In this document: in pieces, positions 12,968 through 31,340 of the stretch
How the letters are laid out: every line of letters starts with the position of its first letter
Numbering within the stretch: position 1 is the stretch's first letter
Origin: Gemmatimonadaceae bacterium
GTDB lineage: Bacteria; Gemmatimonadota; Gemmatimonadetes; Gemmatimonadales; Gemmatimonadaceae
Assembly (NCBI GenBank): GCA_019186945.1
Contig: JABAQJ010000017.1
Location: 156,175-189,400, forward strand
Length of the DNA: 33,226 nucleotides
Direction: 5' to 3'
The notes under the pieces: model-generated
What the model saw: only the letters and a program-made list of their open reading frames with translations
Told to the model about the DNA's origin: nothing
The model's database searches: none
Made by a program: the position numbers and the translations under genes

Positions 12968-12993
12968 GGTGCGTTTCCTCCACTCCGGAACGA

Positions 12994-14208: not shown

Positions 14209-14662
14209 GTTCAGCGTCGGGAAAGTGCGGACGGGATGTACGGTAGGCGGTGCCCCTGAAGAGCGCCACCGTCGTCCCGTTCTGGTTCGTGACGTCGACG
14301 CGGTAGTACCCGAGCCGGTTCGACGAGGCCTCTTCGTACGCGACCGCCGTCAGAACGTCTCCCGGGTGAACGGGCGCCGGATACGCGATCGAATTCGCAA
14401 TACTCACCGTGATCTTTCCGTGTGTGTTGCAGGCGAAGGCAAACGCCGAGTCGGCAAGCGAGAAGACAATGCCGCCGTGGGCAACCCCTAAGCCATTGAC
14501 CATCTCCCGGCGGACAGCCATCCGGCAGGTGCAACGTAGTGGCGCGACAGCCACGATAGACAAGCCAAGCCACGCGCTAAGCGCGTCCCGCTCCAGCATT
14601 CGGGCCGCCACCCGCTCGGCAAGCGCCTGAGCGTCGGTGGCGAGATCCGCGTTCGGCTTCAC
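14201..14662 (-). CDS. paaI: PaaI: hotdog-fold hydroxyphenylacetyl-CoA thioesterase
   Basis: The 153-residue product is a hotdog thioesterase of the PaaI type. The signature [20 protein letters not shown] includes the catalytic aspartate in SLAD, and the ending [14 protein letters not shown] is typical of the family. PaaI releases CoA from ring-hydroxylated arylacetyl-CoA dead-end products and so protects the CoA pool. The open frame extends far upstream over paaH but is meaningless there. The real start is the GTG at 14662, which overlaps the paaH stop (GTGA) and has GAGG at 8 bases. One of the rare TTA codons lies in NGLGV, followed by GGG. Upstream neighbour paaH and downstream neighbour paaJ both overlap it. 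Confidence 0.92.
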
Positions 14663-15840: not shown

Positions 15841-16625
15841 GTACCCGTGAACGTCGGCTTCCGCTTCTGCTGGAATGCCCGAACTCCCTCGCCGAAATCG
15901 TGCGTGCGTCCAGCCTCGGTCTGGATCGTAGCTTCGGTCTCGAGCTGGGCGTCGATACCCTGTTCGAGGCCGAGATTTACCGCACGCTTGGTGAGGCCGA
16001 TGCCGCGCGTAGGCATCGCCGCCAGTCGCACCGCGAGCGCCATCGCCTGCTCCCGAAACACGGCCGGCTCGAAGGTGCGGTAGATCATGCCCCACTCTTG
16101 AGCCGTGGTTGCCGGCAGCTTCTCTCCAAGCAACATCAGAGCCATGGCTCGGGCCGCGCCGACCAGACGCGGGAGAATCCACGTTCCGCCAGAGTCGGGT
16201 ATCAGTCCGATTCCCGCGAACGACTGGACGAAGTACGCGTCCGTCGATGCGACGACGACGTCGCAGGCAAGCGCGAGGTTGGCGCCGGCGCCAGCGGCCA
16301 CGCCGTTCACTGCGCAGATCACCGGCTTCTCCATCGTCCAGATGGCGCGCAAGATCGGGTTGTACTGCGCCCGAACGATCCCGCCGACATCGACGCCGGC
16401 AGGCTCATCCAGCGCGAGCGCGGCGAGGTCCTGTCCGGCACAGAAGCCGCGCCCTGCTCCCGTCAACAGCACGCACCGAATGGCAGCATCACGAGCCGCA
16501 TCATGCAGCGCGGTCTGCAACGCACTCGCCATGAGGCCGTTGAAGCTGTTCAGTACGTCGGGCCGGTTCAGCGTCAGCGTCAGCACACCCTGCGCCACGT
16601 GCTCGATTACCGGATTGCTGTTCAT
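15837..16625 (-). CDS. paaG: PaaG: ring-1,2-epoxyphenylacetyl-CoA isomerase
   Basis: The 262-residue crotonase has exactly the length of E. coli PaaG and its diagnostic segments: LTLTLNRPDVLNSFN, LLTGAGRGFCAGQDLAAL (first oxyanion loop), KPVICAVNGVAAGAGANLAL (second oxyanion loop), GLIPDSGGTWILPRLVGAAR and the end FQQKRKPTFTGT. PaaG converts the ring epoxide made by PaaABC into oxepin-CoA and shifts double bonds later in the pathway. The ATG at 16625 is chosen by length; the frame is open for another 48 residues without homology. There is no clear Shine-Dalgarno sequence. It is the first gene of the paaGHIJY block and lies 67 bp after the HEAT-cyclophilin gene on the same strand, so read-through from that gene is possible. 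Confidence 0.95.
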   Translation of the reverse strand: MNSNPVIEHVAQGVLTLTLNRPDVLNSFNGLMASALQTALHDAARDAAIRCVLLTGAGRGFCAGQDLAALALDEPAGVDVGGIVRAQYNPILRAIWTMEKPVICAVNGVAAGAGANLALACDVVVASTDAYFVQSFAGIGLIPDSGGTWILPRLVGAARAMALMLLGEKLPATTAQEWGMIYRTFEPAVFREQAMALAVRLAAMPTRGIGLTKRAVNLGLEQGIDAQLETEATIQTEAGRTHDFGEGVRAFQQKRKPTFTGT

Positions 16626-16692: not shown

Positions 16693-18897
16693 TCACCGCG
16701 GCCGCCCCTCGGGCGCTCCGTATGAGGTAACCGTGACCCGCTCGATAACGTCGCCTTCGAGGATTCCATCGACTACCGACATCCCTTCGGTCACGGTGCC
16801 GGCCACCGTGTAGTCGTGGTCCAGGCGGAAGTTATCCGCGAGATTCACGAAGATCTGGGCATCGCCCGTGTCACGACCACGCGTCGATATGCCGACAGTT
16901 CCGTAGACGTGACTGGCGAGATCGACCTCGTCGCGCATGAACGGGGAGTTGCCGATGTACTCGGTGGCGCCCGGACTACCACCTTGAATCACGAATGCGG
17001 GCTCGACGCGATGAAACGACAAACCGTCGTAGTAACCGCGCTCAGCCAGCTCGATCAGCCGCTGCGCCGTCGCCGGTGCGGCTTCCGTGCGAAGCCGAAC
17101 GACGAACCTGCCTCCACCGCTTGCCGCCGCCATGGTGATCCGGAGATCAATGGGCGAACCCGTCGCGACGCGTGCCAGCTCGGACGACACACGCTCGATT
17201 CGTACGGCTGCCGGTGCAACAGAGCGTCCAGTCCAGCGCGTGACGATCTCTGCGGCCTGCTGTGCAATGGCCGGATCGAAGTCAGTCAGGTACCGCTCCA
17301 CAACCGACTCACTGGATCGATCTCCCAGTTCACCGATGCGCTGCAGCACAGCCGCTCGCGGATCTCTCGAGTTGTCTTCCCCCGTGCTCGTCAGGCGCAC
17401 GAGCGTGCGTAGCAATGCGGGCAGAACGACGCCGGGCGCTCGGGTACCCCGGAGTGCGTTGGCTGCCGCGAGCACGACGTGGTACTCCGAACTCGCGAGC
17501 GCCTGCACAAAGATCGAATCCGCCGCGTGCCCTACGACGGTCGACAGGCCCTGGATGGCGGCCTCGCGCACCCCACCCTTGGCGTCGTCAGACAGCCGCC
17601 AGAGCACCGCCGTGTCGCGAAGCACCGCTGCGGCTCTGGCGGCGTACATCCGCACCTGCCAGATGGGGTGCGCAACGGCGTCGCGCACGATCTGGCGCGC
17701 CGCCGGCGCATCGACTCGGGCGAGGGACACCACGGCGTGCGCGTGGGTGTGCCACGAGGCGCGTCCGCTGACGCGATCCGCCTGGCGCGGCGCGGGCCGA
17801 ACCAGGGATGCCAACACGGACCGGACTTCGTCCGATGGTTCGCAGCCGCCTAGCGCGTCGATCGCCGCCAGCGCGACGTGTGGCGCCGCGTCATGCGCAG
17901 CTGCTGCAACTGGCCTGCAATCGCTCGGCAAGAAGCGCCGCCATGCCCGTACCGCTTCCATGCGCACCAGGAAATGGCTGTCGGCGAGCGCACGGACGAG
18001 GAGTCGCCGTCGTGCGCCGGCATCGACGACATTCGGTGCTGCCAGCACGGCCAGGCGTCGCATCTGCACGTCAGGGTCCGCCAGCGCCAAGGCAGCGGTA
18101 CTGTCCGCGCGCACAACAGCAGCATTGAGCGTCAGCATCGTCAGGCGCCTGATCCGAACTGCGGCGTCGTCGCTGGCTCGTTTGGCCGCGACCCCACGCC
18201 CGTAGCGCAGCAAGTGAAGATCGACAGCGTCGGGCACATGGGTGGGCCGATTCGGCGGCGGCCGCGTTGTGCGCGCCAGGTTGTAGCTCGCGTGCAGGAC
18301 GCCGAACAGTTCCGTCGGGTCGGCGTCGTCGACATGCGCCGGACTGGCAAGCAAGCCCCCGGCGTGCCGGAGTCCGGCCAGCGCCTGGCGGATGCGCTCT
18401 CCACTGGAGTCGGCGCCAGCGATTCGCCCTAACGAGCGGGCAATAGTACCGCGTACCGCTGGATCGCGTTCACGCGACAGCGCCGGGACCAGCAGATCCC
18501 GCACCTGCTCCACCACCCGCGCCGACGCTCCGCGACGCTGTCCATGTGCGATCTGCGCCAGCGCATTAAAGACCTCCTCGCGCACGCGTGGCGATGGATC
18601 GCCGACATGCGCAGCCAGAACATCGATGAACTCGATCCTTTCGAACCGGCCAAGGGCGCGAGCGCCCGAGGCCCGTACGTCGGAATCCGGGCTGTCGAGC
18701 GCGCCCGTGAGGATTCGGAGCGAGTCGGCATTCGAAGTTCGCGCATCCTCGGCCGCGAGGCGCGCCTGCAGCGCCATCACGTCTTGCGCAGCCGCAACGC
18801 GCGTGACGCCGGTCACCGCCAGCAATCCGGCCGCGGCGGACAGACCGAATGTGCGGAAGGCCCTGGGGTGGAACCGTGCCTGCCGTGCGTTCGCCAT
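16693..18897 (-). CDS. Exported HEAT-repeat protein fused to a cyclophilin-type prolyl isomerase
   Basis: The 734-residue product starts with a basic region and a hydrophobic segment ending VAAAQD (about residue 39), a signal peptide. Residues of about 45 to 570 are HEAT-like helical repeats, for instance SDVRASGARALGRF, PRVREEVFNALAQI and PAVRGTIARSLGRI. The last 155 or so residues are a cyclophilin: RFVVRLRTEAAPATAQRLIE, the active-site region YDGLSFHRVEPAFVIQGGSP with the catalytic arginine, DAQIFVNLADN and LDHDYTVAGTVTEGMSVVD. It should act in the periplasm as a peptidyl-prolyl isomerase, with the HEAT scaffold holding a partner or substrate. It lies between paaG and a divergently transcribed E1 gene and has no known link to phenylacetate. 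One TTA codon occurs, in the context TCG-TTA-GGG. Confidence 0.9.
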   Translation of the reverse strand: MANARQARFHPRAFRTFGLSAAAGLLAVTGVTRVAAAQDVMALQARLAAEDARTSNADSLRILTGALDSPDSDVRASGARALGRFERIEFIDVLAAHVGDPSPRVREEVFNALAQIAHGQRRGASARVVEQVRDLLVPALSRERDPAVRGTIARSLGRIAGADSSGERIRQALAGLRHAGGLLASPAHVDDADPTELFGVLHASYNLARTTRPPPNRPTHVPDAVDLHLLRYGRGVAAKRASDDAAVRIRRLTMLTLNAAVVRADSTAALALADPDVQMRRLAVLAAPNVVDAGARRRLLVRALADSHFLVRMEAVRAWRRFLPSDCRPVAAAAHDAAPHVALAAIDALGGCEPSDEVRSVLASLVRPAPRQADRVSGRASWHTHAHAVVSLARVDAPAARQIVRDAVAHPIWQVRMYAARAAAVLRDTAVLWRLSDDAKGGVREAAIQGLSTVVGHAADSIFVQALASSEYHVVLAAANALRGTRAPGVVLPALLRTLVRLTSTGEDNSRDPRAAVLQRIGELGDRSSESVVERYLTDFDPAIAQQAAEIVTRWTGRSVAPAAVRIERVSSELARVATGSPIDLRITMAAASGGGRFVVRLRTEAAPATAQRLIELAERGYYDGLSFHRVEPAFVIQGGSPGATEYIGNSPFMRDEVDLASHVYGTVGISTRGRDTGDAQIFVNLADNFRLDHDYTVAGTVTEGMSVVDGILEGDVIERVTVTSYGAPEGRPR

Positions 18898-18977
18898 GAC
18901 CAGAAGTCCGTGGAAGCGATGGAACCGAAAAGTGCACTCCGATCCGCATCCGCACCATCGACATTCCCATTGCCATC

Positions 18978-19002
18978 GAGGGCAGCGTGAGCCGCTGCCC
19001 TC
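18978..19002. other. Perfect 10-bp hairpin in a divergent promoter region
   Basis: GAGGGCAGCG (18978-18987) and CGCTGCCCTC (18993-19002) with a 5-nt loop lie between the divergent starts of the HEAT-cyclophilin gene (18897) and the E1 fusion gene (19126). A terminator is not expected between divergent genes. It could be a leader structure, a barrier between the two promoters or a protein-binding dyad. Confidence 0.4.
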
Positions 19003-19125
19003 ACCAACGCCAACGACGATTTCCCGGAGCCCTGGTTCGACTCCGCCCTCCGTTCGCCATCTGCCCGTGTGTAGATTCCCTCGCCAGTCGCTTGCCGACC
19101 CTTCGCCCGTCAGACCGCATAACGC

Positions 19126-21258
19126 ATGGCCGCCTCACTCCGGAGACCGCGCGCTCCCCGAGCCAGCACGCACGCCGCCGCACCGTCGATCGACTGGAGC
19201 AAGGTGGCTTACCACACACTGGTCTCCCGTGCGCTGGACGACATCGAGGAACAGACGAACCGGAAGAAGGGTGCTGTACCGAAGGATTACCAGGTACTGT
19301 ACCAGTTCTCCGCCCGCGGGCATGACGTTGCCCAGGCGATCCTCGGCGCCTTTGTGACCCATCCGCGCGATGCCGTCGGTGCCTACTATCGGTCGCGGCC
19401 GCTCCTTCTCTCGTTAGGTCTGTCGATCGAGGATGGGCTTGCATCGCCATTGGGACGGGCAGGGGGCTTCAGCGATGGGCGCGATATCGGCGTCGTATGC
19501 AACATGCCGAATCGCAATACTCCCAAGGTGCTGCCCATGAGCGGCGATGTCGGATCCCAGTACACTCCAACTGCCGGCTGGGCTCAGGCCATCGCCTACC
19601 ATCGCGACCAGCTCGGTGACGAGGCGTACCGCGGGGCGATCGCCATCGCGCTCGGCGGCGAGGCCTCGGTGGCTACCAGCGGCTTCTGGTCCTCGCTGAC
19701 GATCGCCACCACGTTGCAGTTGCCGATGCTCTTCTATATCGAGGACAACGGCCTCGGCATCAGCGTGCGCGGCAGCATGCAGACGCCGGGCGGCGACATC
19801 GCCTCCAACCTCGCCAGCTTCGCCAACCTCCTGGTTCGCAACGGCGACGGTACGAACCCGCCAGAGGCGGCCGCGCTACTGGGAGAGGCCGTCAGGCACG
19901 TGCGTGGCGGCGCCGGTCCCGCCTTGGTGAGGCTGACGGTCCCTCGCCTGAGCAGTCACTCGGGGCCGGATAACCAGAAGGGCTACCGGACCGACGCCGA
20001 GATCGCCGCCGATCGCTCACGCGACCCACTGCCCCGACTCAAGAGCTTCCTGGTGCCTGCCATCATGGCCGAGCGACACTGGAGCGAAGTCGAGAGATCG
20101 GTGGCGCGCGACGTCGATGCCGGGCTCCGGGCTGCCCGCGCACGGCCGGCGCCAGACCCCACGACGATCAAACGCTTCGTCTATGCGGAACCCGGCCGAT
20201 CGGGAGACGCAGACACCATGGGCGGGCTCTCGCTGGCCGAGCGCGAGGCGTTAGGTGGGACGGAGACCGCGGCAGAAGGCGGCGATGCCGTCCGATTCGC
20301 GGAAGCCATCCGACGTACGCTGCGTTCGGAACTCGCGCGCAATCCCAAGGTTGTGGTCTTTGGCGAAGATGTCGGTGTGAAAGGGGGCGTGCACCTGGTG
20401 ACCGAGGGACTCCAGAAGCAGTTCGGCGAGGCCCGTGTCTTCGACACCAGCCTCTCGGAGGAAGGCATTGTCGGCCGTGCCGTCGGGATGGCCATCGCCG
20501 GCCTCGTGCCCGTCGCTGAGATCCAGTTCCGGAAGTACGCCGACCCGGCAACCGAACAACTCAACAACTGCGGGACGATGCGATGGCGCACGGCAAATCG
20601 CTTCGTCGCCCCGATCGTCGTGCGCATGCCCGGCGGCTTCGGCAAGGACGTCGGCGATCCCTGGCACTCCGTGAGCGCAGAGGTAACCTGGGCACACGCA
20701 GTCGGCTGGCAGGTCGCAATCCCGTCAACGGCCGCCGACGCCGCCGGGCTATTGCGATCAGCCATGCGCTCGCCGAACCCGACGATCTTTTTCGAACACC
20801 GCGCCCTCCTCATGACGAGCGACGGCAGCGGGCACTATCCGGGTGACGAGTATGTGATTCCGTTAGGCAGGGCCCGGCGCGTGCGCGAGGGTCGCAGCCT
20901 GACGATCGTGAGCTGGGGCGCCCTCGTCCATCGCTGTGCCGACGCCGCTGAACTTGCAGATGCGGACGTGGAACTCATCGACCTCCGCACGATCGCGCCG
21001 TGGGATCGGGATGCTGTCCTGGCTTCGGTCAGGAAGACCGGCCGCTGCCTGATCGTCCACGAAGACACGGTTACGGCCGGCTTCGGGGCGGAGATCGCGG
21101 CCACGCTCGCCCGCGATGCGTTCTGGTATCTCGATGCACCGATCGACCGGCTCTGCGTCGACGACACGCCGGTGCCCTATCATCCGGCGCTCATGGACGC
21201 AGTCATCCCCACGACCGCCCGAATCGCCGACCGCATCGCGTCCCTGACCAGCGTCTGA
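19126..21258 (+). CDS. Single-chain E1 alpha-beta 2-oxoacid dehydrogenase
   Basis: The 710-residue product fuses the alpha and beta subunits of a thiamine-diphosphate E1 of the branched-chain/pyruvate dehydrogenase type. The alpha part (about 20-350) has the cofactor region ALGGEASVATSGFWSSLTIA followed by LPMLFYIEDNGLGIS, and the loop LSSHSGPDNQKGYR. A linker of about 40 residues follows. The beta part (about 385-710) has VVVFGEDVGVKGGVHLVTEG, VFDTSLSEEGIVGRAVGMAI, AEIQFRKYADPATEQLNNCG and LIDLRTIAPWDRDAVL. It decarboxylates a 2-oxoacid and passes the acyl group to a lipoyl E2. No E2 or E3 gene is in the window, so the partner complex is elsewhere and the substrate cannot be told. The ATG has no clear ribosome site. 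All three TTA codons seen are in the word CGTTAGG. Confidence 0.9.
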   Translation: MAASLRRPRAPRASTHAAAPSIDWSKVAYHTLVSRALDDIEEQTNRKKGAVPKDYQVLYQFSARGHDVAQAILGAFVTHPRDAVGAYYRSRPLLLSLGLSIEDGLASPLGRAGGFSDGRDIGVVCNMPNRNTPKVLPMSGDVGSQYTPTAGWAQAIAYHRDQLGDEAYRGAIAIALGGEASVATSGFWSSLTIATTLQLPMLFYIEDNGLGISVRGSMQTPGGDIASNLASFANLLVRNGDGTNPPEAAALLGEAVRHVRGGAGPALVRLTVPRLSSHSGPDNQKGYRTDAEIAADRSRDPLPRLKSFLVPAIMAERHWSEVERSVARDVDAGLRAARARPAPDPTTIKRFVYAEPGRSGDADTMGGLSLAEREALGGTETAAEGGDAVRFAEAIRRTLRSELARNPKVVVFGEDVGVKGGVHLVTEGLQKQFGEARVFDTSLSEEGIVGRAVGMAIAGLVPVAEIQFRKYADPATEQLNNCGTMRWRTANRFVAPIVVRMPGGFGKDVGDPWHSVSAEVTWAHAVGWQVAIPSTAADAAGLLRSAMRSPNPTIFFEHRALLMTSDGSGHYPGDEYVIPLGRARRVREGRSLTIVSWGALVHRCADAAELADADVELIDLRTIAPWDRDAVLASVRKTGRCLIVHEDTVTAGFGAEIAATLARDAFWYLDAPIDRLCVDDTPVPYHPALMDAVIPTTARIADRIASLTSV

Positions 21259-21291
21259 AAGCCGGAAGCCGGACTGAGCGAAGAGCTCGAA

Positions 21292-22560
21292 TCAGGGGCC
21301 GTCACCTGCCTCAGCACCGCGCCGCCCACGGCTGAGGATCGAAACTGCGGTGAGATGCCCGGTTACATTCAGCAGCGTCTTGAACACGTCTGGTAGCGCG
21401 TCCAGCGCAATCAGGATTCCCACGCCTTCGACCGGAAGGCCAACGGTTGGAAAGAGGGGAGCGACGATGAACAAGCTCCCGCTGGGAATCCCCGGTACGC
21501 TGAAACTCATGGCCACCGATGCCACCCCGATCGTGACGATCGCTGCGGCTGGCAACGGCACGTTGTACAGCGCGCCTATGAAGAGAGCTCCCACGATCCA
21601 TGACACAGCCACGTTCAATCTGAACAGCGATACGGCAAACGGCACAAGGAAACCCGCCGTCGCCCGCGGTACGCCGAATCGCTGTTCGGCGGCTTCGAGC
21701 ATCGCCGGAATAGCGGCCAGGGAAGATCGCGTCCCCATCGCGACCGCCTGGGCCGGAATCGCCGCGCGCGTGAAGGTTGCGATGCCAACGCTTCCGAAAA
21801 TGGCGATAAGCAGGTAGAGCACTCCCAGCACTGCAAACAGCATCGCAACGTGAACGCCAAGGTAGTATGCGACCGCGCCGGCAGCAGAGACTCCCAGTTT
21901 CGCGCCTAACGCTGTCGCCAGGCCAGCGATACCGATGGGAGCGAGGGCAAGCGCCCACCGCACCAGCACCAGCATCGCGTCCCCAGCAGACCTGAAGAAA
22001 CCGACTACCGCCTCTCGCTCGTTACGCGGAATAGCCCGTACCGCCAGACCGAACGCGGCGGTAAATGCGAGCAAGGGCAGCATTGTGCCGTCGACCGCGG
22101 CCTTCACCGGATTGCTCGGGATTAACCCGGTGACCCAGCTGGCGAACGTCGGCAATTCCGGGATCGTGCCGGCGCTCGTGGCGACCGAAGATCTCAATGC
22201 GTTGGCCGACGTCGGATCTACCCGCAGGAACGCGAACATTGCCGGCGCCAGCAGCGCCGTCATCGCGGCGGCAGTCGTCAGTAGCAACGCAAAGACGCCG
22301 AGGGATCGGCCGCCCAGCCGCGCTACCGCACCGGTTCCGCCACTCTGGGCGATGCCGGTGATCACCAGCGATACCATCAGCGGGATCACCGTCATGCGGA
22401 TGGCGTTGACCCACAGAGTGCCCACGGGTTCGGCGACCGCAAGGACCGCGGACGTCGCACCCGGACCGATTGCGCGGAGCGCTATCCCAAAGGCGAAGCC
22501 CAACACGAGCGCCGCGATCGCTAGGACGCCCTGAGACGAAGAACTCCTCGCGTACGGCAC
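21292..22560 (-). CDS. Dicarboxylate/amino acid:cation symporter (GltP/DctA family)
   Basis: The 422-residue membrane protein has multiple hydrophobic helices and the DAACS/SLC1 features: the early NAIRMTVIPLMVSLVITGIA segment, GLIPSNPVKA, the serine-rich hairpin TRSSLAAIPAMLEAA, and the substrate-binding helices near FLVPFAVSLFRLNVAVSW and SFSVPGIPSGSLFI. Members take up glutamate, aspartate or C4/C5 dicarboxylates with protons or sodium. The start is a GTG at 22560, 24 bp after korB on the same strand, so it is probably the last gene of the kor unit. Co-transcription with a 2-oxoacid oxidoreductase fits uptake of 2-oxoglutarate, succinate or glutamate, but the substrate is inferred only from context. 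It ends 33 bp from the convergent E1 gene. Confidence 0.9.
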   Translation of the reverse strand: MPYARSSSSQGVLAIAALVLGFAFGIALRAIGPGATSAVLAVAEPVGTLWVNAIRMTVIPLMVSLVITGIAQSGGTGAVARLGGRSLGVFALLLTTAAAMTALLAPAMFAFLRVDPTSANALRSSVATSAGTIPELPTFASWVTGLIPSNPVKAAVDGTMLPLLAFTAAFGLAVRAIPRNEREAVVGFFRSAGDAMLVLVRWALALAPIGIAGLATALGAKLGVSAAGAVAYYLGVHVAMLFAVLGVLYLLIAIFGSVGIATFTRAAIPAQAVAMGTRSSLAAIPAMLEAAEQRFGVPRATAGFLVPFAVSLFRLNVAVSWIVGALFIGALYNVPLPAAAIVTIGVASVAMSFSVPGIPSGSLFIVAPLFPTVGLPVEGVGILIALDALPDVFKTLLNVTGHLTAVSILSRGRRGAEAGDGP

Positions 22561-22584
22561 TGGCGTCGTGCGTTGCCAGTGCGC

Positions 22585-23640
22585 CTAGCGGAACTCCTCC
22601 ATCAACTCGTCGAGCGCCGCACGGCCGGGGCAGAGCGACGCAAACGGCACATCGACGAGCGGCGTTGACACCGTCCTGTTGGACGCGTGCATCTCGAAGC
22701 CGCGTTCGTCCAGATAGAGCAGGCCGGTAGCGATCTCGCCTCGCTCCTGGGCATGGCGCACGTATGCGTACGCCGCGTCGCGATCCGTCGGATCGTACCC
22801 CTCCTTCACGCGGCGAAAACGAACCGTGCTCCCGTCGTGCATGGTGACCGACATTGCCGTCCCCTCGGCGCTCTGCGCCGTGATTTCGCGACGCAGCGGG
22901 ATGAAATCCACCGGCGCCACTTCCTCCGCATGCTCCCGGGTGTAACGGTAACTCTTCGTGCTGCCCTCGTGATCGTTGAAGCTGACACACGGCGAGATCA
23001 CGTCCACGAGCGCGAACCCGTTGTGCGCCAGGCCGGCCTTGAGGATGGGAATCAACTCGTCCTTGTCACCGGAGAAGCTGCGGGCGACAAACGTGGCTCC
23101 CAGCGAAAGCGCCAGCAGCACGGGATCGATTGGCGGTTGCAGGTTGGGCTCGCCGCGCTTGGCCGTCGACCCGACGTCAGCCGAAGCGGAAAACTGGCCC
23201 TTGGTCAAACCGTAGACGCCATTGTTCTCGAGCACGTACAGAAGGCGCAGGCCACGGCGGATTGCGTGACAGAGCTGCCCCAGTCCGATCGATAGCGAAT
23301 CGCCGTCGCCGGAAATGCCGACATAGGTAAGGCTGCGATTTGCCGCGTTGGCTCCCGTCGCTACCGACGGCATGCGTCCGTGCACGGCGTTGAAGCCGTG
23401 CGACTGCCTCATGAAGTACGCGGTGGTCTTCGACGAGCAACCGATGCCGCTCATCTTGGCGGCGCGATGCGGCGGAATGTCCATCTCCCAGAATGCCGTG
23501 ATCAGCGCGCTCGTGACCGAGTCGTGCCCGCACCCGGCGCAGAGCGTCGACATCGCCCCTTCATAATCGCGTCTCGTCAATCCCAGTGCGTTCTTCTGCA
23601 GGCCGGGATGCCGAACCGGAGGTTTCGCGATCGACGTCAT
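22585..23640 (-). CDS. korB: KorB: 2-oxoacid:acceptor oxidoreductase, beta (TPP) subunit
   Basis: This 351-residue subunit carries thiamine diphosphate and a [4Fe-4S] cluster. It shows LCAGCGHDSV and KMSGIGCSSKT (cluster cysteines), the TPP motif ISGDGDSLSIGLGQL followed by LYVLENNGVYGLTKGQ, and the conserved ALSLGATFVARSFSGD and LVDVISPCVSFNDH. With KorA it oxidatively decarboxylates a 2-oxoacid to an acyl-CoA, reducing a ferredoxin or a flavin partner. Closest in type to the oxygen-tolerant KorAB of mycobacteria and to the aromatic-degrading Azoarcus/Thauera enzymes, going by architecture. Its start overlaps the korA stop (ATGA). Specificity (2-oxoglutarate, pyruvate or aryl-pyruvate) cannot be read from the sequence. 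Confidence 0.92.
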   Translation of the reverse strand: MTSIAKPPVRHPGLQKNALGLTRRDYEGAMSTLCAGCGHDSVTSALITAFWEMDIPPHRAAKMSGIGCSSKTTAYFMRQSHGFNAVHGRMPSVATGANAANRSLTYVGISGDGDSLSIGLGQLCHAIRRGLRLLYVLENNGVYGLTKGQFSASADVGSTAKRGEPNLQPPIDPVLLALSLGATFVARSFSGDKDELIPILKAGLAHNGFALVDVISPCVSFNDHEGSTKSYRYTREHAEEVAPVDFIPLRREITAQSAEGTAMSVTMHDGSTVRFRRVKEGYDPTDRDAAYAYVRHAQERGEIATGLLYLDERGFEMHASNRTVSTPLVDVPFASLCPGRAALDELMEEFR

Positions 23641-25454
23641 GCGGGCACTCCAGCGAAGTGTTGGCTGACAGCGGCCACGACCACACCGGCGGTCAGCGGC
23701 TCACCGCCATAGTCGAGGATCGAGAACAACCGATCGCGAGCGATACCGGTCTCCAGCGCGAGTAGCGACCGCAGCTGTCCGTCACGATTCTGTTCGACGA
23801 CGAATACGGTCTCATGCTCTTCGAGGAAGTCCGTCACGCTCGACGGGAACGGAAAGCCGCGGATCCGCAAATAGTCGCAGCGCATGCCGCGATCCCGGAG
23901 ACGGTCCACCGCCTCGACCACGGCCGCGTTGCAGCCGCCGATGGCAACGATGCCGATACTTGGGCCCACCGAACCGTCGGCGTCACTCGCGATGCGAAGG
24001 ATCGGCGCGGGCACGTGGTCGGCGGCCGCGTCGATCTTCCGCTTCAGCCGATCGACGACCTCCTGGTACGCAGCCGCATCCTCCGTGTATGCCGCATGCC
24101 TGTCGTGGCCAGAACCGCGCGTGAAGTACGCCCCTTTCGCTCCCACACCCGGGAGCGTGCGGGCTGCAACCCCGTCGCCGTTGGTCGCCAGATAGCGCGA
24201 GAAGCGCGGGAGCTTCTCGACGTCGGCTGCCGTCAGCACCTTGCCGCGGTCCGGTACGAACCGATCGTCCCATCTTGGACGTTCGATCATCCAGTCGTTC
24301 ATCCCGATGTCCAGATCGGACACGACGAACACAGGCGTCTGGAAACGCTCCGCCAGATCCAGCGCCTGCATCGCCATCGTGAAGCATTCCCCCGGATCGG
24401 CCGGGAAGAGCATGATGTGCTTCGTGTCGCCGTGCGATGCGTACGCGATCGACAACAGGTCGCTCTGCTGCGTACGCGTGGGCATCCCCGTGGCCGGTCC
24501 GGCGCGTTGCACATCGAAGAATACGGCGGGGATCTCCGTGTAGTAGGCGAGTCCGATGAACTCCTGCATCAGCGAGATGCCCGGGCCCGACGTGGATGTG
24601 AACGCCCGTGCGCCCGCCCATCCGGCGCCGATCACCATGCCAGCGGCGGCCAGCTCGTCTTCCGCCTGCACGATGCAGTACGCCTTCTCGCCTGTTGACT
24701 TGTCTGTCCGATAGCGTCCGCAATATCCCTTGAACGCCTCCATCAACGACGTCGCCGGAGTAATCGGGTACCAGGCGCCAACCGTGGCTCCACCCCACAC
24801 GCAACCCAGCGCGGATGCCGTATTGCCGTCCAGCAGTACGTGCCCACCGGTTGCGTCCATCCTCTCGAGGTGGAAGGGCAGCGGCGAAGAAAAATGCTCG
24901 CGCGCATAGTCGTACCCCATGTGCAACGCACGGAAGTTGGAGTCGAGCAGCTTCGGCTTCCGGCCGTACTGCTCCTTCAGCATTTCGCTTATCACGTCCA
25001 TGTCGATCGCGAACAGCGCCGCGAGCGATCCAGCGTAGGCGATGTTGCGCAGCAGCGTGCGCTCGCGATCCCCTGTGAAAGCCTCGGCGCACATCTCGCC
25101 GAAGGGAATGCCCAGCACGTCGATGCCGTCACGCGACAGCGTGCGCTCCATCGGCCAGGTGGAATCGTACAGCAGATACCCACCCGGACGTACCTTGGCG
25201 ACGTCACGCGCGTACGTGCCGGGGTTGAGCGCCACCACAAGGTCGAGACTCTCGGGCCGAGCCGTGTATCCGTCCTTGCTGACGCGGATCTCGTACCAGG
25301 TGGGCAGCCCCTGGATGTTCGACGGGAAGATGTTCTTGCCCGTCACGGGAACGCCCATGCGGAAGATCGACTGCATCAGGAGAGTGTTGGCGCTGGCTGA
25401 ACCAGTGCCGTTCACCGTGCCGATCCGGAACGCGAAGTCGTTGATGCCAGACAT
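23637..25454 (-). CDS. korA: KorA: 2-oxoacid:acceptor oxidoreductase, fused gamma-alpha subunit
   Basis: The 605-residue subunit has the gamma domain at its N-terminus (about 1-190, with GTVNGTGSASANTLLMQSIF and GLPTWYEIRVSKDGY) and then the alpha pyrimidine-binding domain (about 225-460), including GAWYPITPATSLMEAFKGY, AEDELAAAGMVIGAGWAG and STSGPGISLMQEFIGLAYY. A C-terminal transketolase-like domain follows (about 490-600). This gamma-alpha fusion is standard for two-subunit KorAB enzymes. The ATG at 25454 is chosen because the gamma domain begins right after it; the 29 upstream residues of open frame lie in the gap and in the preceding gene. It sits 28 bp after the flavoprotein subunit gene and overlaps korB by 4 bp, so the three should be one transcript. 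Confidence 0.92.
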   Translation of the reverse strand: MSGINDFAFRIGTVNGTGSASANTLLMQSIFRMGVPVTGKNIFPSNIQGLPTWYEIRVSKDGYTARPESLDLVVALNPGTYARDVAKVRPGGYLLYDSTWPMERTLSRDGIDVLGIPFGEMCAEAFTGDRERTLLRNIAYAGSLAALFAIDMDVISEMLKEQYGRKPKLLDSNFRALHMGYDYAREHFSSPLPFHLERMDATGGHVLLDGNTASALGCVWGGATVGAWYPITPATSLMEAFKGYCGRYRTDKSTGEKAYCIVQAEDELAAAGMVIGAGWAGARAFTSTSGPGISLMQEFIGLAYYTEIPAVFFDVQRAGPATGMPTRTQQSDLLSIAYASHGDTKHIMLFPADPGECFTMAMQALDLAERFQTPVFVVSDLDIGMNDWMIERPRWDDRFVPDRGKVLTAADVEKLPRFSRYLATNGDGVAARTLPGVGAKGAYFTRGSGHDRHAAYTEDAAAYQEVVDRLKRKIDAAADHVPAPILRIASDADGSVGPSIGIVAIGGCNAAVVEAVDRLRDRGMRCDYLRIRGFPFPSSVTDFLEEHETVFVVEQNRDGQLRSLLALETGIARDRLFSILDYGGEPLTAGVVVAAVSQHFAGVPA

Positions 25455-25482
25455 GAAGACCGAAAGGATCGAGGGACGTGCG

Positions 25483-27297
25483 TCAGGCGGAGACCGCTGC
25501 CAGCGGGAGGGATCGCGCGGATCCCGCCGGACGACCGGCATATGGTTGCAGCAGATCGAACCTCCGCATGTCCCACGCTGCGGTGGGACAGCGCTCGGCG
25601 CACAGGCCGCAGTGCAGACAGAGGTCTTCGTCCTTGACCATGATGCGGCTCGTCTGCGGCAGCTCGGCCGATGCGTAGAGCGCCTGCGTCAGGTTTTCAG
25701 CCGGCGCCGACAGCCTCGTGCGGAGGTCCACTTCGTCGCCATTCGCCGTGATAGTCAGGCAGTTGACCGGACAGACGTCGACGCAAGCGTCGCACTCGAT
25801 GCACAAGTTCGCCGTGAAGTGCGTCTGAATATCGCAATTCAGACAGCGCTCGACTTCCCGCGCCGTCTGTTCGGCATCGAAGCCCAACTCCACTTCCACG
25901 GAGAGCGTCGAAAAACGAGTCGAAAGCTCCGCGTGCGTCATCGACGTGCGCGCCGCCGGGCTGTAGTCGTTGCTGTAGCTCCACGCGTGCATGCCCATCT
26001 TCGAGGAAGCCAGCGTCATTCCTTGCGGCGGACGATCCTCGACCGGAATGCCCTGGCAGTGGTTGTGGATCGAGATCGCAGCTTCATGTCCATGAGCGAC
26101 TGCCCAGATAATGTTCTCCGGACCCCACGCCGCATCTCCTCCGAAGAAGACACCGGGCCGGCTGCTCTGCATCGTTCCCCGGTCCACCTTCGGCATCCCC
26201 TGCTGATCGAAGTCGATACCTATGTCGCGCTCGATCCACGGGAAGGCGTTCTCCTGACCGATCGCGAGGATTACCGCATCGGCCGGGATTGCCACCGTCT
26301 CGATTACGCTGCTGCGCTGCTTGCCACTCGCGTCGGTCGTCCATTCGAGGCGCTCGAACTCCATCGCAACGAGCACGCCATTCTCGGTAACGAAGCGCTT
26401 CGGAGCGTGGTTCTCCACGATCTGCACGCCCTCCTCCTCCGCGTCTTCCAGCTCCCACGGCGACGCCTTGAAGTAGGGACGCGATCGGCGGGCGACTACC
26501 TTGATGTCCGTCCCGCCTAACCGGCGCGACGTGCGACAGCAGTCCATCGCAGTGTTCCCGACCCCGATGATCAGGACGCGCTTTCCGATAGACTCCACGT
26601 GGCCGAAATGAACATTGGCCAGCCATTCGATGCCGATGTGTATCTGGCTCGGTGCGTCCCAGCGGCCCGGCACGTCGAGTTCCTTTCCTTTCGGCGCGCC
26701 GCTTCCCACGAACACCGCGTCAAAGCCCTCGGTGAGAAGTCGGCGCATGCTCTCGACCGGCGTGCCAAAGCGCGCGTCCACACCCATGTTAAGGATGTAT
26801 CCCACTTCCTCGTCGAGTACCGATTCGGGAAGCCGAAACGAGGGAATGTTGACCCGCATCAGGCCCCCGGCCCGCTCGTGCTTCTCGAAGAGACTGACCT
26901 CGTAGCCCAGTGGCATGAGATCGTTCGCCACCGTTAGCGATGAAGGGCCGGCACCGATCAGGGCCACTCGCTTCCCATTCTTCTTCGCCGGAACCGCCGG
27001 AAGCATGGCCTGGACCTCGTCCTTGTGGTCGGCAGCCACCCGCTTCAGCCGGCAAATCGCGACCGGCTTGCCCTCCACTCGCGATCGGCGGCAGGCTGGC
27101 TCACATGGACGGTCGCACGTCCGGCCCAGGATACCGGGAAAGACGTTCGTCTCGCGGTTGAGCAGGTACGACTCGGTGTATCGACCTTGGGCAATGAGCC
27201 GGATGTACTCGGGCACATTCGTGTGCGCGGGACACGCCCATTGGCAGTCGACGACGCGATGGTAGTACTTCGGGTCCGATACGTTCGTGGGCTGCAA
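25483..27297 (-). CDS. GltD-like FAD/NAD(P) oxidoreductase with two [4Fe-4S] sites, Kor partner
   Basis: The 604-residue product starts with a GltD-type cysteine-rich helical domain (VDCQWACPAHTNVPEYIR, GRTCDRPCEPACRRSRVEG). It continues with FAD- and NAD(P)-binding domains (VALIGAGPSSLTVANDL, VLIIGVGNTAMDC, RPGVFFGGDAAWGPENI). It ends with a ferredoxin-like module with two four-cysteine sets (CIECDACVDVCPVNCLT and CLHCGLCAERCPTAAW). It lies first in the unit with korA and korB, so it probably moves electrons between KorAB and NAD(P). A third flavin/Fe-S subunit of this kind is, as I recall, described for the Azoarcus evansii 2-oxoglutarate:NADP oxidoreductase. The start is TTG 27297, supported by a strong AGGAGG 4 bases upstream. 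One TTA codon occurs, followed by GGC. It could also be a stand-alone NADPH-dependent dehydrogenase subunit. Confidence 0.88.
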   Translation of the reverse strand: MQPTNVSDPKYYHRVVDCQWACPAHTNVPEYIRLIAQGRYTESYLLNRETNVFPGILGRTCDRPCEPACRRSRVEGKPVAICRLKRVAADHKDEVQAMLPAVPAKKNGKRVALIGAGPSSLTVANDLMPLGYEVSLFEKHERAGGLMRVNIPSFRLPESVLDEEVGYILNMGVDARFGTPVESMRRLLTEGFDAVFVGSGAPKGKELDVPGRWDAPSQIHIGIEWLANVHFGHVESIGKRVLIIGVGNTAMDCCRTSRRLGGTDIKVVARRSRPYFKASPWELEDAEEEGVQIVENHAPKRFVTENGVLVAMEFERLEWTTDASGKQRSSVIETVAIPADAVILAIGQENAFPWIERDIGIDFDQQGMPKVDRGTMQSSRPGVFFGGDAAWGPENIIWAVAHGHEAAISIHNHCQGIPVEDRPPQGMTLASSKMGMHAWSYSNDYSPAARTSMTHAELSTRFSTLSVEVELGFDAEQTAREVERCLNCDIQTHFTANLCIECDACVDVCPVNCLTITANGDEVDLRTRLSAPAENLTQALYASAELPQTSRIMVKDEDLCLHCGLCAERCPTAAWDMRRFDLLQPYAGRPAGSARSLPLAAVSA

Positions 27298-27460
27298 ACC
27301 CCCTCCTGACGCGGGCTAGGCTCGCATCTTCGCTGCGAGCACGAGGACTTTCAAGTCCTCACCGCGCTCGTCGTCCGTCGCCTCTGCGCCTCCTGTGTGC
27401 TATTCCCGTATCGCGAGACGGCAAAATGCTGGTAGTCCCAAGAGGACGGCGTACGACAAA

Positions 27461-27489
27461 CGCCGCTCCCGTGGCGTCCCGGAGCGGCG
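27461..27489 (-). terminator. Intrinsic terminator after the dienelactone-hydrolase gene
   Basis: CGCCGCTCC (27461-27469) and GGAGCGGCG (27481-27489) form a perfect 9-bp stem with an 11-nt loop, 27 bp after the stop of the hydrolase gene. On the minus strand the stem is followed by TTTGTC, a short T-run. It separates the hydrolase gene from the kor unit. Confidence 0.6.
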
Positions 27490-27516
27490 CGGAAACCGGC
27501 GGCGACGCGCCTAACG

Positions 27517-28536
27517 CTACTCCCTGAGGCTCTTCCGGAGGAACGCGATCGTCCTGGGCCAGGCATCCTTGGCAGCCGCCAGGTTCGCCTGTTCCTCGGT
27601 TTCGTCGCGTGTTGCCTTGGGATCGGCCTGCGCTCGAAGGAATCCGTGTACGGCACCCTCGTAGTTCATCGCCGAGTAGTCTTTCTTGAGCGCCTTCATG
27701 ATGGAGTCGAGCGCTGGCATGGCGGCGCTGATGCGAGCATCCTTCGATCCGTTTAGCAACATGACTGGCACCTTGATCTTCGCGATCGAATCGGCCACGA
27801 TCGACGCGGGGACGGCCGGACTCGTCGCGGTCGCGGATGAGCCACCGCTGGTATATGGCAGGCCGTAGAAGGCGACCCCTCCGGAGAAGCCTTTCACGCC
27901 TCCATTGATCGCGTGATAGAACGTCGTCGATCCACCCCAGCAGTATCCGATCACCGCATACTTCTGAGTCGCCGCCGGCAGCATCATGGCGTAATTCGCC
28001 GCTGCAGTGACGGCGCGATTGCGTTCCGCAGCGTCCACGCCGCGAATCAGCTTTGTCGCCGAGTCGGACTGGAGTTCGTCCGTGCTTGGGCCGCCGCGCA
28101 CGCGCGAGAGGAAGTCCGGTGCAATGGCAATGAATCCGTCGGCTGCAACCTGGTCGGCGACACCGCGCACCCATGTGGAAAGCCCGAAGATCTCGTGCAC
28201 GACGACCACTACCGGTGCCTTTCGCGATGTCGACGGATAGACGATCCATGCCATCAGGGAGTCGGCGGAACCAGGTTGCCAGGCGATCTTCACCCATTCA
28301 CCGTGCCGAGGGCTCGAGGCGAGGCGAGCTCTCGCGGTCTGGTTGCTAGGCGGGAGCCCTGTGGTTCCTTGCTGATCGGTGGCATTGCCGGCAAGCAGAG
28401 GGGCGGGTGGTGTCGCATCGGCGACGCTCATGTGCGACACGTGTTCGTCGGACGCAGACTCGGCCATCTGCGTGGAGCGCGGCAAGGCGCACGCGGCTGC
28501 TAGGGACAGAGCGAGAAGCGGCAGGCGACGCGTCAT
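27517..28536 (-). CDS. Dienelactone hydrolase family lipoprotein
   Basis: The 339-residue product has a lipoprotein signal (RRLPLLALSLAAACALP, lipobox LAAAC) and a low-complexity linker of about 70 residues. An alpha/beta hydrolase of the dienelactone hydrolase family follows. The family triad and helper residues are visible: glutamate in VVVVHEIFGLS, the nucleophile cysteine in AVIGYCWGGSTTF, aspartate in NGSKDARIS and histidine in GAVHGFLRAQ. The ATG at 28536 has GAGGA 7 bases upstream and opens the signal, so the upstream open frame is left out. Cytoplasmic dienelactone hydrolases act on chlorocatechol lactones, but exported versions have unknown substrates. It lies between the kor unit and the paaABCD block, 135 bp after paaD; no functional link is shown. 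CCTAACG lies directly beyond its stop codon. Confidence 0.88.
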   Translation of the reverse strand: MTRRLPLLALSLAAACALPRSTQMAESASDEHVSHMSVADATPPAPLLAGNATDQQGTTGLPPSNQTARARLASSPRHGEWVKIAWQPGSADSLMAWIVYPSTSRKAPVVVVVHEIFGLSTWVRGVADQVAADGFIAIAPDFLSRVRGGPSTDELQSDSATKLIRGVDAAERNRAVTAAANYAMMLPAATQKYAVIGYCWGGSTTFYHAINGGVKGFSGGVAFYGLPYTSGGSSATATSPAVPASIVADSIAKIKVPVMLLNGSKDARISAAMPALDSIMKALKKDYSAMNYEGAVHGFLRAQADPKATRDETEEQANLAAAKDAWPRTIAFLRKSLRE

Positions 28537-28671
28537 GGGCGCAGTCCTCAGGAAAGATTGAGATACAAGGCGACTTAAGCTAGACGGGAGCGGCCATGCC
28601 TGAAAGGGAGGCGGATGCTGGTCGAACAATGGTGATCCTTCGCGCGACCTCAGCAGTGCTTCACGCGCCGG

Positions 28672-29190
28672 TCAAATTGCTTTGAAGTGCTCGAACGGCT
28701 GCCGGCAACCGTTGCAGAAGTGAATCGACTTGCAGGCCGTCGAGCCGAAGTGGCTTCGCTCCTCCGTGCTTTGCGATCCGCAGAACGGGCAGGGTACCGT
28801 CAGAGGCCGCCGCCGCAACTGGGTCAGCGTCGGGTGCTCGGCGGCGGATGCGGCCCCGGGCGGGGCGATGCCGAAGGCACGCAGGCGTTCGCGCGCGTCC
28901 GGCGCGATCCAGTCCGTCGTCCACGCCGGCGAATAGACCGTGCGAACGTGAACCGTCGCTGCGCCGGCGCGCCGCAGAGCCTGGACGATACCGCTCGCCA
29001 TTTCGCTCATCGCCGGACAACCCGAATACGTCGGAGTAATCTCGACCGCAACGTCGCCAGCTGCATCGACACGAATGTCGCGAACCACGCCAAGGTCCAC
29101 GACGCTCAGGACCGGTATCTCGGGATCGGAGACACCATCGAGCGCGCGCCAATAGCGTGCGGTTGCGGGATCCGTCGCCCGCGCTACCAC
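28672..29190 (-). CDS. paaD: PaaD: Fe-S assembly-type factor of the phenylacetyl-CoA epoxidase
   Basis: The 172-residue product joins an MIP18/DUF59-type domain (VSDPEIPVLSVVDLGVVRDI, TPTYSGCPAMSEM) to a C-terminal zinc-ribbon-like segment (VPCPFCGSQSTEERSHFGST, CKSIHFCNGCRQPFEHFKAI). This is the layout of PaaD, needed in vivo for the epoxidase and thought to help Fe-S maturation of its reductase. The frame is open well into paaC, but a valid start appears only at the GTG 29190, which overlaps the paaC stop by 7 bases and has GGGGG close upstream; it gives a length near the 165 residues of E. coli PaaD. It is the last gene of the paaABCD block, and no paaE follows it. Confidence 0.93.
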   Translation of the reverse strand: MVARATDPATARYWRALDGVSDPEIPVLSVVDLGVVRDIRVDAAGDVAVEITPTYSGCPAMSEMASGIVQALRRAGAATVHVRTVYSPAWTTDWIAPDARERLRAFGIAPPGAASAAEHPTLTQLRRRPLTVPCPFCGSQSTEERSHFGSTACKSIHFCNGCRQPFEHFKAI

Positions 29191-29936
29191 TTTGCCCCCG
29201 GAAACGACCGGGCCACGATCTGCATTTCTGCGAGCATATGGCCCAGGTGTTCGGTATGGCGGCCGACGCGTCCGCCGCGCATCATGTAGCCGTCCGCCGG
29301 CAGCTTCAACGTCGCGCGCTCCACCACTTCGGCCACCTGCGCTCGCCACTCGGCAGCCAGCGTCGACGAGTCGACGCCGATACCGCGCTCGACCAGTCGG
29401 CGCTCCACGCCGTCCGTATCGAACAGTTCACCCGTATACCGCCAAAGGTCGTCGAGCGCGCGTTGCGCCCTGCGGTGCGACTCCTCGGTGCCGTCGCCGA
29501 GCTTCACGATCCAGTCCGCACTGTGCCGAGCGTGATAGCGCACTTCCTTGAGCGCCTTGGCGGCGATACCGGAGAGATCGGAACGCGCGCTGTGGGCCAG
29601 CCGGTCGAACAGCAGCATGTCGCGAGCGGCTACCACTAGCTGACGGACGATCGTGAAGGCGAAATCCCCCCGTGGCAACTCGCAAATCAGCGCATTGCGA
29701 TACTCGACGGCTTCGCGGAAATACGCCAGCCGATCCTGATCCCGGCCCGCCCCCTCAACGCTGCCGGCCAGTTGCAACAAATGGTTCGCTTGCCCGACGA
29801 GGTCGAGCGAGATGTTGGCGAGCGCGATGTCTTCCTCGAGGATCGGGCCGTGGCCACACCATTCGGACAGGCGGTGGCCAAGCACCAGTCGGTCGTCAGC
29901 AATCCTGAGCAGGTACGCAAACAGATCGGCGTCCAT
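29184..29936 (-). CDS. paaC: PaaC: structural subunit of phenylacetyl-CoA epoxidase
   Basis: The 250-residue product (E. coli PaaC has 248) is a helical ferritin-like protein with the PaaC features ADDRLVLGHRLSEWCGHGPI, LEEDIALANISLDLVGQA, DRLAYFREAVEYRNALICEL and KEVRYHARHSADWIVKLGDG. PaaC pairs with the catalytic PaaA subunit as the scaffold of the PaaAC core and has lost a working di-iron site. Its ATG lies 3 bp past the paaB stop and its end overlaps paaD, typical of one polycistronic message. Confidence 0.95.
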   Translation of the reverse strand: MDADLFAYLLRIADDRLVLGHRLSEWCGHGPILEEDIALANISLDLVGQANHLLQLAGSVEGAGRDQDRLAYFREAVEYRNALICELPRGDFAFTIVRQLVVAARDMLLFDRLAHSARSDLSGIAAKALKEVRYHARHSADWIVKLGDGTEESHRRAQRALDDLWRYTGELFDTDGVERRLVERGIGVDSSTLAAEWRAQVAEVVERATLKLPADGYMMRGGRVGRHTEHLGHMLAEMQIVARSFPGAKW

Positions 29937-29939
29937 CGC

Positions 29940-30224
29940 TCAGAAGACTTTGACGCCGCGTGGCGTCCTGTAGAACTGCGGATGCCGGTAGACCTTGTCG
30001 TTCGCCGGGTCGAAGAATGGCCCGGTGTCGGCCGGTACTGTCGCGGTGATGTTAACGCTGGGCACGACCCACATGGATAGCGCGCCCCGACGGCCGTACA
30101 CATCGCGCGCGTTCTGGAGCGCCTGTTCCGGGTCCACGGCGTGGACGCTCCCCGCATGGAAGTGCGGTGCACCCTGCTCCTCCTGGACAAAGACCTCCCA
30201 CAGAGGCCATTGGGAATCGGTCAT
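29940..30224 (-). CDS. paaB: PaaB: bridging subunit of phenylacetyl-CoA epoxidase
   Basis: The 94-residue product (95 in E. coli) has the family sequence WPLWEVFVQEEQGAPHFHAG, then HAVDPEQALQNARDVYGRR and the C-terminal FYRTPRGVKVF. PaaB links PaaAC dimers in the epoxidase and is required for activity. It lies 50 bp after paaA and 3 bp before paaC. The leader has no clear Shine-Dalgarno sequence but contains the palindrome GTGATCAC about 6 bases before the start. Confidence 0.95.
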   Translation of the reverse strand: MTDSQWPLWEVFVQEEQGAPHFHAGSVHAVDPEQALQNARDVYGRRGALSMWVVPSVNITATVPADTGPFFDPANDKVYRHPQFYRTPRGVKVF

Positions 30225-30274
30225 GGTCGTGTGATCACGTGCAAGGGTAGCATTATTCTATGGGCACGATCTCG

Positions 30275-31246
<972 letters not shown>

Positions 31247-31340
31247 GGACACTGTCGCGGAAGGTCGTGGGCAGGTGGCGCGTGCAGGAGAGAATCTAAC
31301 GCGGGAATGGTCGTCTGGGCGCAAGTCGCTCCGCTTAACT

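Follow-up and report, generated by a model that had tools for sequence, protein, structure and literature searches.

A fused 2-oxoacid dehydrogenase E1 in the phenylacetate gene cluster of Gemmatimonadaceae, a probable phenylpyruvate dehydrogenase component that would dispense with PaaK

A direct route from phenylalanine via phenylpyruvate to phenylacetyl-CoA bypasses free phenylacetate in Phaeobacter inhibens (PMC7497051), and a pyruvate dehydrogenase (PDH)-like E1 with an alpha and a beta subunit, PglB and PglC, has been proposed to convert phenylpyruvate into phenylacetyl-CoA in Streptomyces pristinaespiralis (PMC7089894, PMC10685826). Here we describe a fused alpha-beta E1 of the 2-oxoacid dehydrogenase type, termed E1-P, encoded in the phenylacetate (paa) cluster of a 33,226-nucleotide stretch of a Gemmatimonadaceae genome (GCA_019186945.1, contig JABAQJ010000017.1, positions 156,175 to 189,400; hereafter the window). 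Judged from its sequence and genomic context, E1-P probably serves as the E1 in a phenylpyruvate dehydrogenase complex, which would form phenylacetyl-CoA without the phenylacetate-CoA ligase PaaK. Whereas PglB and PglC are two separate genes of an antibiotic cluster devoted to phenylglycine biosynthesis, E1-P is a single fused gene in a catabolic paa cluster, and the two are likened by proposed function, not by sequence. The enzyme of the P. inhibens route is reportedly an oxidoreductase of the indolepyruvate:ferredoxin type, in contrast to the 2-oxoacid dehydrogenase E1 considered here, although both routes skip free phenylacetate. The bypass of PaaK is known in principle from Phaeobacter and PglB/PglC, and the new element would be a catabolic E1 embedded in a paa cluster; no catabolic phenylpyruvate dehydrogenase in such a cluster was recognised in the literature searched, whose coverage excludes most subscription journals.

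In the proposed route, an aminotransferase or amino-acid dehydrogenase would turn phenylalanine into phenylpyruvate, which E1-P, as a thiamine-diphosphate E1, would decarboxylate. A lipoyl E2 would accept the phenylacetyl group from E1-P and transfer it to CoA, and an E3 would reoxidise the lipoyl group, yielding NADH. Since the resulting phenylacetyl-CoA would enter PaaABC(D), PaaG, PaaZ, PaaH, and PaaJ directly, neither PaaK nor free phenylacetate would be needed. We infer the substrate of E1-P, the E2 and E3 used in the source genome, and the upstream transaminase.

The reading rests foremost on the distribution of E1-P. We searched 151 genomes of the order, among them the source genome (3.95 Mb in 20 contigs, 100% complete; G000 in this sample), for PaaA, KorA, PaaK, PaaE, SucA, and fused E1. 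PaaA was counted in 70 genomes with matches above the model cut-off, leaving aside 42 further genomes with matches of at most 127 bits, and E1-P in 70 genomes at 555 bits or more, a few of them cut by contig ends (G140, G085, G092), weaker matches being other E1 enzymes. Both are present in 68 genomes, PaaA only in 2, E1-P only in 2, and neither in 79, such that the pathway consuming phenylacetyl-CoA accompanies E1-P; within the source genome's own family, the corresponding numbers are 58, 2, 1, and 12. E1-P is found in 54 of the 55 PaaA genomes devoid of PaaK. The two go together even among close kin, because genus g3 is split into genomes with both (G007, G076, G096) and with neither (G004, G048, G104). 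The exceptions are G090 and G134 with PaaA only, and G097 and G148 with E1-P only. In G134, the paa contig stops right after a gene of the MATE family, which is the site of E1-P in relatives such as L094; in G097, E1-P lies on a 6.7-kb contig that also bears paaY, J, G, and H; G148 lacks a SucA match as well; and G090 has PaaK. Three of the four (G134, G097, G148) may be assembly gaps.

PaaA and E1-P are also physically linked, sharing a contig in 56 of the 68 genomes and lying at most 15 kb apart in 52. In the window, which forms the terminal 33 kb of contig 9, a minus-strand block comprising paaZ, a paaY-like gene, paaJ, paaI, paaH, and paaG (7375-16625) is followed by a HEAT-repeat/cyclophilin gene and the plus-strand gene for E1-P. 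Downstream on the minus strand lie a symporter gene of the SDF family, korB, korA, a GltD-like flavoprotein gene, a dienelactone-hydrolase-like gene, and paaD-C-B-A; a crotonase-family gene is divergently oriented beyond paaA. Domain and model matches thereby confirm the arrangement described in the initial annotation, in which a fused E1 and a KorB-KorA-flavin/Fe-S set were placed between paaG-H-I-J-Y and paaDCBA. All four epoxidase proteins (PaaA, B, C, and D) score above their model cut-offs. E1-P and the genes of the cluster proper are:

19126-21258, plus strand: E1-P, fused alpha-beta E1 of a 2-oxoacid dehydrogenase, proposed phenylpyruvate dehydrogenase E1 (E1_dh, Transket_pyr, and Transketolase_C domains)
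7375-9462, minus strand: PaaZ, oxepin-CoA hydrolase / semialdehyde dehydrogenase (TIGR02278, 1016.2 bits, cut-off 562.8)
12365-13051, minus strand: PaaY-like protein (212.2 bits, under the PaaY cut-off of 319.6)
12994-14208, minus strand: PaaJ, 3-oxoadipyl-CoA thiolase (TIGR02430, 627.5 bits, cut-off 597)
14201-14662, minus strand: PaaI, thioesterase, start approximate (TIGR02286, 121 bits, cut-off 118.9)
14659-15840, minus strand: PaaH-like 3-hydroxyacyl-CoA dehydrogenase (TIGR02279, 458.2 bits, under 669.4; NF006124, 518 bits, over 508)
15837-16625, minus strand: PaaG, isomerase (TIGR02280, 332.9 bits, slightly below 345.15)
16693-18897: HEAT-repeat/cyclophilin gene (domain matches)
28672-29190, minus strand: PaaD, later of two possible starts (TIGR02159, 184.7 bits, cut-off 108.15)
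29184-29936, minus strand: PaaC (TIGR02158, 299.1 bits, cut-off 133.35)
29940-30224, minus strand: PaaB (TIGR02157, 102.3 bits, cut-off 85.45)
30275-31324, minus strand: PaaA (TIGR02156, 510.1 bits, cut-off 280)
31440-32225, plus strand: crotonase-family gene (homologue near paaA in 19 of 20 relatives' paa loci)

From the KorA and PaaA search matches, we then picked 20 kor loci and as many paa loci of relatives for reading. Of the 20 paa loci, 16 contain E1-P, which in 14 of them lies between the paaG side and paaD; in L099 and L104 it is there and the stretch ends before paaG, and in L085 and L095 it lies just beyond the stretch read. In G072 (L151), whose E1 is the closest to that of the window in our tree, the order is paaY-J-H-G, HEAT/cyclophilin, E1, paaD-C-B-A, crotonase. 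Because this matches the window except for the symporter, kor, and hydrolase genes, the window shows the usual order enlarged by an inserted segment of about 7 kb. E1-P belongs stably to the paa cluster, and the Kor operon together with the symporter and hydrolase genes has been inserted into this otherwise conserved cluster and has no part in the proposed route. The HEAT-repeat/cyclophilin gene adjoins E1-P here and in four relatives (L091, L099, L104, L151), and a MATE-family efflux gene does so in L086, L093, L094, L103, L137, and L140. The crotonase-family gene fits no curated PaaF or PaaG model among the listed matches. Between paaZ and paaY, the plus strand encodes an 876-residue DUF5916 protein (9666-12296), and a GxxExxY-like protein near the cluster, recognised by eye in the window (32212-32676), also occurs in L091 (7437-7934; TIGR04256).

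The source genome shares PaaABCD, G, H, I, J, and Z and a PaaY-like protein with the canonical aerobic Paa pathway but lacks PaaK and PaaE. The initial annotation had noted both to be missing from the window, which is borne out and extends to the whole genome: the best of five first-pass candidates reached 26 bits with the PaaK model TIGR02155 (cut-off 646.3), in a search made with this model alone and not with those of other ligase or CoA-transferase families, and the PaaE model TIGR02160 gave no match at E 0.001. In the order, PaaK was counted in 16 of the 151 genomes at 545 bits or more (12 of them above the cut-off), three more at 88-197 bits being excluded. The scope of the ligase search and the five low-scoring candidates leave some room for another AMP-forming ligase, or a CoA transferase, that would make phenylacetyl-CoA from free phenylacetate while E1-P does something else in the pathway. 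We consider this improbable, since it leaves the co-occurrence of E1-P and PaaA unexplained and since acetoacetate-CoA ligase is the sole ligase among the orthologue groups listed for the relatives' paa loci; moreover, PaaK can itself sit in the cluster where it is present, adjoining paaA in G074 and lying near paaZ and E1-P in G005 (L137, L148).

The surroundings of the cluster in relatives point toward amino-acid breakdown. At least one phenylalanine/tyrosine gene (ELFV-dehydrogenase-like, 4-hydroxyphenylpyruvate dioxygenase (HPPD), or homogentisate-dioxygenase-like) was found in 12 of the 20 paa loci. The ELFV-dehydrogenase-like gene occurs in 8, with weak Pfam matches and leucine dehydrogenases as solved relatives (best 2.9e-7); HPPD in 6 (TIGR01263, 453.8 bits, cut-off 277); and the homogentisate-dioxygenase-like gene also in 6, matching part of the PF20510 model (30.4 versus 20.2 bits) and no NCBIfam model at 1e-20. 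In some relatives, acetoacetate-CoA ligase adjoins these genes. From their gene content, such loci would look like an aromatic amino-acid breakdown region, with tyrosine degraded via homogentisate and phenylalanine via phenylacetyl-CoA.

In E1-P, the E1_dh, Transket_pyr, and Transketolase_C domains all score above their Pfam cut-offs. Conserved in 18 of 18 aligned rows are an acidic residue and, at a distance of 29 residues, an Asn, the alpha-loop His, and a Glu and a His of the beta part; we presume their roles from a comparison with the branched-chain 2-oxoacid dehydrogenase (BCKDH). The predicted enzyme is intact, with its catalytic residues kept. Its closest solved proteins by sequence are PDH and BCKDH chains, and a structure model (mean predicted local distance difference test score, pLDDT, of 73) matches the fold of PDH and branched-chain E1 beta chains. 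Branched-chain E1 enzymes (1um9 from Thermus, 1qs0 from Pseudomonas) have the same domains, fold, and catalytic residues; E1-P differs from them in being fused and tied to PaaA.

All 151 genomes have a fused E1 match at 1e-50. The strong matches split in two: E1-P, at 58-100% identity to that of the window and found once each in its 70 genomes, and a second fused E1 at 37-42%, which at least 80 genomes carry, the source genome among them. In the tree, all 30 E1-P rows, from several phyla, form one group (support 95/93) apart from the second fused E1, with the caveat that the outgroup rows L267 and L272 are very long-branched, probably through a wrong reading frame, and that L209_P has an odd letter composition. 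The second fused E1 is, by sequence identity and tree position, a separate paralogue.

In a rival reading, E1-P would be an ordinary branched-chain or broad-range 2-oxoacid dehydrogenase E1 that merely neighbours paa in a region of amino-acid breakdown. The PDH and BCKDH chains among its nearest solved proteins, the agreeing fold, and the acetoacetate-CoA ligase, HPPD, and Leu/Phe-dehydrogenase-like genes that adjoin it in some relatives all fit such an enzyme. A generic enzyme, however, should also occur without paa, whereas just 2 of the 81 genomes that lack paa have E1-P, and these two show signs of gaps; another fused E1 already exists in 80 or more of the 151 genomes; and no typical branched-chain catabolic gene was recognised by eye among the orthologue groups present in at least 4 of the 20 paa loci. 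We therefore regard a branched-chain role as unlikely, though not negligibly so.

We also used the E1-P alignment to scan named genomes and kept the best 80 loci of a larger number, which extended the association beyond the order. These loci belong to records of Gemmatimonadota, Rhodothermota, Balneolota, Bacteroidota, Oceanospirillaceae, other Pseudomonadota (Lysobacterales, Chromatiales, Sphingomonadales), Acidobacteriota, and Planctomycetota. At the score limits used, 69 of the 80 have at least two strong paa genes; paa-bearing loci outside Gemmatimonadota include L215, L220, L224, L221, L230, and L231, and E1-P next to paa genes also occurs in Rhodothermota, Bacteroidota, and Gammaproteobacteria. 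Roseisolibacter sp. H3M3-2 (L187) and Marinobacterium ramblicola (L214) are among the named carriers of E1-P. Outside Gemmatimonadota, as judged by record title, we reached 18 genomes with E1-P, of which 15 have PaaA; the 18 include L209 ('UBP9'), which groups with the source genome's own family in the tree. PaaK reaches at least 590 bits in 7 of these 18 genomes and in 5 of the 15 with PaaA. Beside E1-P, a gene for an Lrp/AsnC-type regulator is found in L214 and L227, and one for a HisC-type aminotransferase in L219 and L233.

An E2-like gene lies near E1-P in 19 of the best 80 loci, all within L209-L234 and mostly directly after E1-P; in M. ramblicola (L214), the E2 gene adjoins that of E1-P. 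Four such E2s checked against Pfam have lipoyl, E3-binding, and acyltransferase domains. In the sister family, this E2 gene is part of the paa cluster itself, where it separates E1-P from paaD (L147, L100). G096 and G007 (L145, L146), which belong to the source genome's own family, carry the sister-family form of E1-P (62-63% identical to that of the window) together with its E2, which by sequence suggests transfer of E1-P between the families. The source genome has three E2 genes, none adjacent to E1-P: one SucB above cut-off and two below it, of which one fits PDH-type E2 best, as scanned from a fragment only, and the other SucB-type. A close orthologue of the E1-P-linked E2 was sought in this genome and not found, the three being just 27-45% identical to the E2s next to E1-P. 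In this organism, E1-P would borrow one of the three.

The genes of the insertion, the second 2-oxoacid decarboxylating system of the window among them, are:

21292-22560, minus strand: SDF-family symporter
22585-23640, minus strand: KorB (TIGR02177, 204.8 bits, under the cut-off of 261.9 yet the best family), outside the proposed system
23637-25541, minus strand: KorA, gamma-alpha fused 2-oxoacid:acceptor oxidoreductase subunit (TIGR03710, 552.8 bits, above the cut-off of 482.75)
25483-27297, minus strand: GltD-like flavoprotein with Fe-S domains
27517-28629, minus strand: dienelactone-hydrolase-like gene

In all 20 kor loci read, korA and korB stand together as a unit with the flavoprotein gene, and no paa genes are near kor in any of them (15-20 kb read each). 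KorA was counted in 45 genomes at 61-100% identity, seven further ones at 31-35% being excluded. Within the own family, KorA and PaaA show no association (both 38, PaaA only 22, KorA only 6, neither 7; p=0.35); across the order p is 6e-11, but a single family, in which PaaA is also common, accounts for 44 of the 45 genomes with KorA. Among the 39 genomes with both, 6 have them on a common contig, five of these with over 1 Mb in between, and Kor is close to PaaA in the source genome only. Conserved linkage in relatives, whose absence the initial annotation had held would count against its proposal, is therefore not what we find for Kor, and we reject Kor as a paa component, since neither linkage nor co-occurrence supports it. 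In 3 of the 20 kor loci (L065, L066, L073), a symporter of the SDF family that shares 43-47% identity with that of the window is encoded several kb away from kor, because of which symporter and kor may have moved together; in 4 of the 20, including L072, subunits resembling NAD-dependent formate dehydrogenase were recognised by eye near kor.

As to its substrate, the best solved match of KorA is 6n2n, a 2-oxoglutarate enzyme of Magnetococcus marinus; here, Kor comes with the GltD-like Fe-S flavoprotein. A substitute for 2-oxoglutarate dehydrogenase in the tricarboxylic acid cycle is ruled out by SucA, which is matched at E 1e-100 in 148 of the 151 genomes (140 above cut-off), the source genome included. 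That same SucA could make a 2-oxoglutarate role of Kor redundant, and aryl pyruvates are known substrates of some ferredoxin-type 2-oxoacid oxidoreductases; with kor located inside the cluster here, KorAB and the flavoprotein might be thought to oxidise phenylpyruvate to phenylacetyl-CoA. We judge this highly improbable given the proximity to paa in only 1 of 39 genomes and the p of 0.35, the lack of Kor in 22 of the 60 PaaA genomes of the family, the absence of any Kor gene at the score thresholds used from the best 80 named E1-P loci, and the kinship to 6n2n. The earlier suggestion that phenylpyruvate is converted to phenylacetyl-CoA without a ligase by either system is well supported for E1-P, to judge by co-occurrence, linkage, the absence of PaaK, and the E2 and phenylalanine/tyrosine genes in relatives, and is not supported for the unlinked Kor.

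The same initial annotation had, more speculatively, cast the Kor flavoprotein as a source of electrons for other oxidoreductases. Reconstitution of the epoxidase in vitro required PaaE, according to a review (PMC9493321), and with PaaE absent and a flavin/Fe-S protein encoded next door, the flavoprotein could be imagined to reduce PaaABC in its place. PaaE, however, scores above cut-off in just 1 of the 151 genomes (G010), with or without Kor, although PaaA is present in 70; weaker matches reach 203 bits in G130 and at most 100 bits in 19 further genomes. The model works in this group, because PaaE attains its full score in G010 (455 bits). Thermus composti and Deinobacterium chartae, taken as controls, are likewise positive for PaaA and negative for PaaE. 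Because 31 of the 70 PaaA genomes lack Kor, Kor is no general answer to how electrons are supplied without PaaE, and with its linkage and association to paa missing as well, we give this idea almost no credence. G010 itself has a second type of paaABCDE with PaaE (L101, L142; PaaA 68% identical), which looks acquired, and its E1-P-paaGHJYZ block lies 939 kb away.

Several observations weigh against E1-P as a phenylpyruvate dehydrogenase. No library names its substrate, and its scores with curated PDH E1 models are all below cut-off (NF006667, 238.4 of 321; NF008854, 229.2 of 454; TIGR03181, 103.8 of 411.35; TIGR03182, 88.1 of 393.85); neither the sequence nor the fold model fixes the 2-oxoacid. 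Of the 70 PaaA genomes, 15 have PaaK as well. The genomes are related, and Fisher values overstate their independence. Fewer than two strong paa genes are near E1-P in 11 of the best 80 loci, and 3 of the 18 E1-P genomes outside Gemmatimonadota lack PaaA, two of which (G159, G168) have PaaK. An E2 homologue was detected in only 6 of 40 stretches tested, four of the six in the sister family, the 40 including four stretches that are neither paa nor E1-P loci. Phenylalanine/tyrosine genes are not among the matches in the window or in the 30 kb to its left, the rest of the source genome not having been searched.

The Paa pathway is usually sought via PaaK, which 55 of the 70 PaaA genomes of this order lack. 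A 2026 survey was built on 853 PaaK predictions (PMC13186573); Gemmatimonadota is not among the classes that its distribution section names, and its main text has no words starting with 'phenylpyruvate' or 'Gemmatimonad'. We lean towards the view that the E1-P phenylpyruvate dehydrogenase complex, with its own E2 in 19 of the 26 distant loci L209-L234, is common to several phyla and feeds the Paa pathway as its main and often its sole entry point in Gemmatimonadaceae, where the 'phenylacetate pathway' would be a phenylalanine pathway without free phenylacetate that surveys anchored on PaaK miss. If E1-P makes phenylacetyl-CoA, a function would be assigned to an E1 paralogue that libraries name no further than 'pyruvate dehydrogenase E1-like', and the PaaK-less pathways would be complete and fed by phenylalanine. 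By the established chemistry of the two enzyme types, in which the ligase costs ATP and the dehydrogenase gains NADH, these organisms would save the ATP of the ligase and gain NADH.

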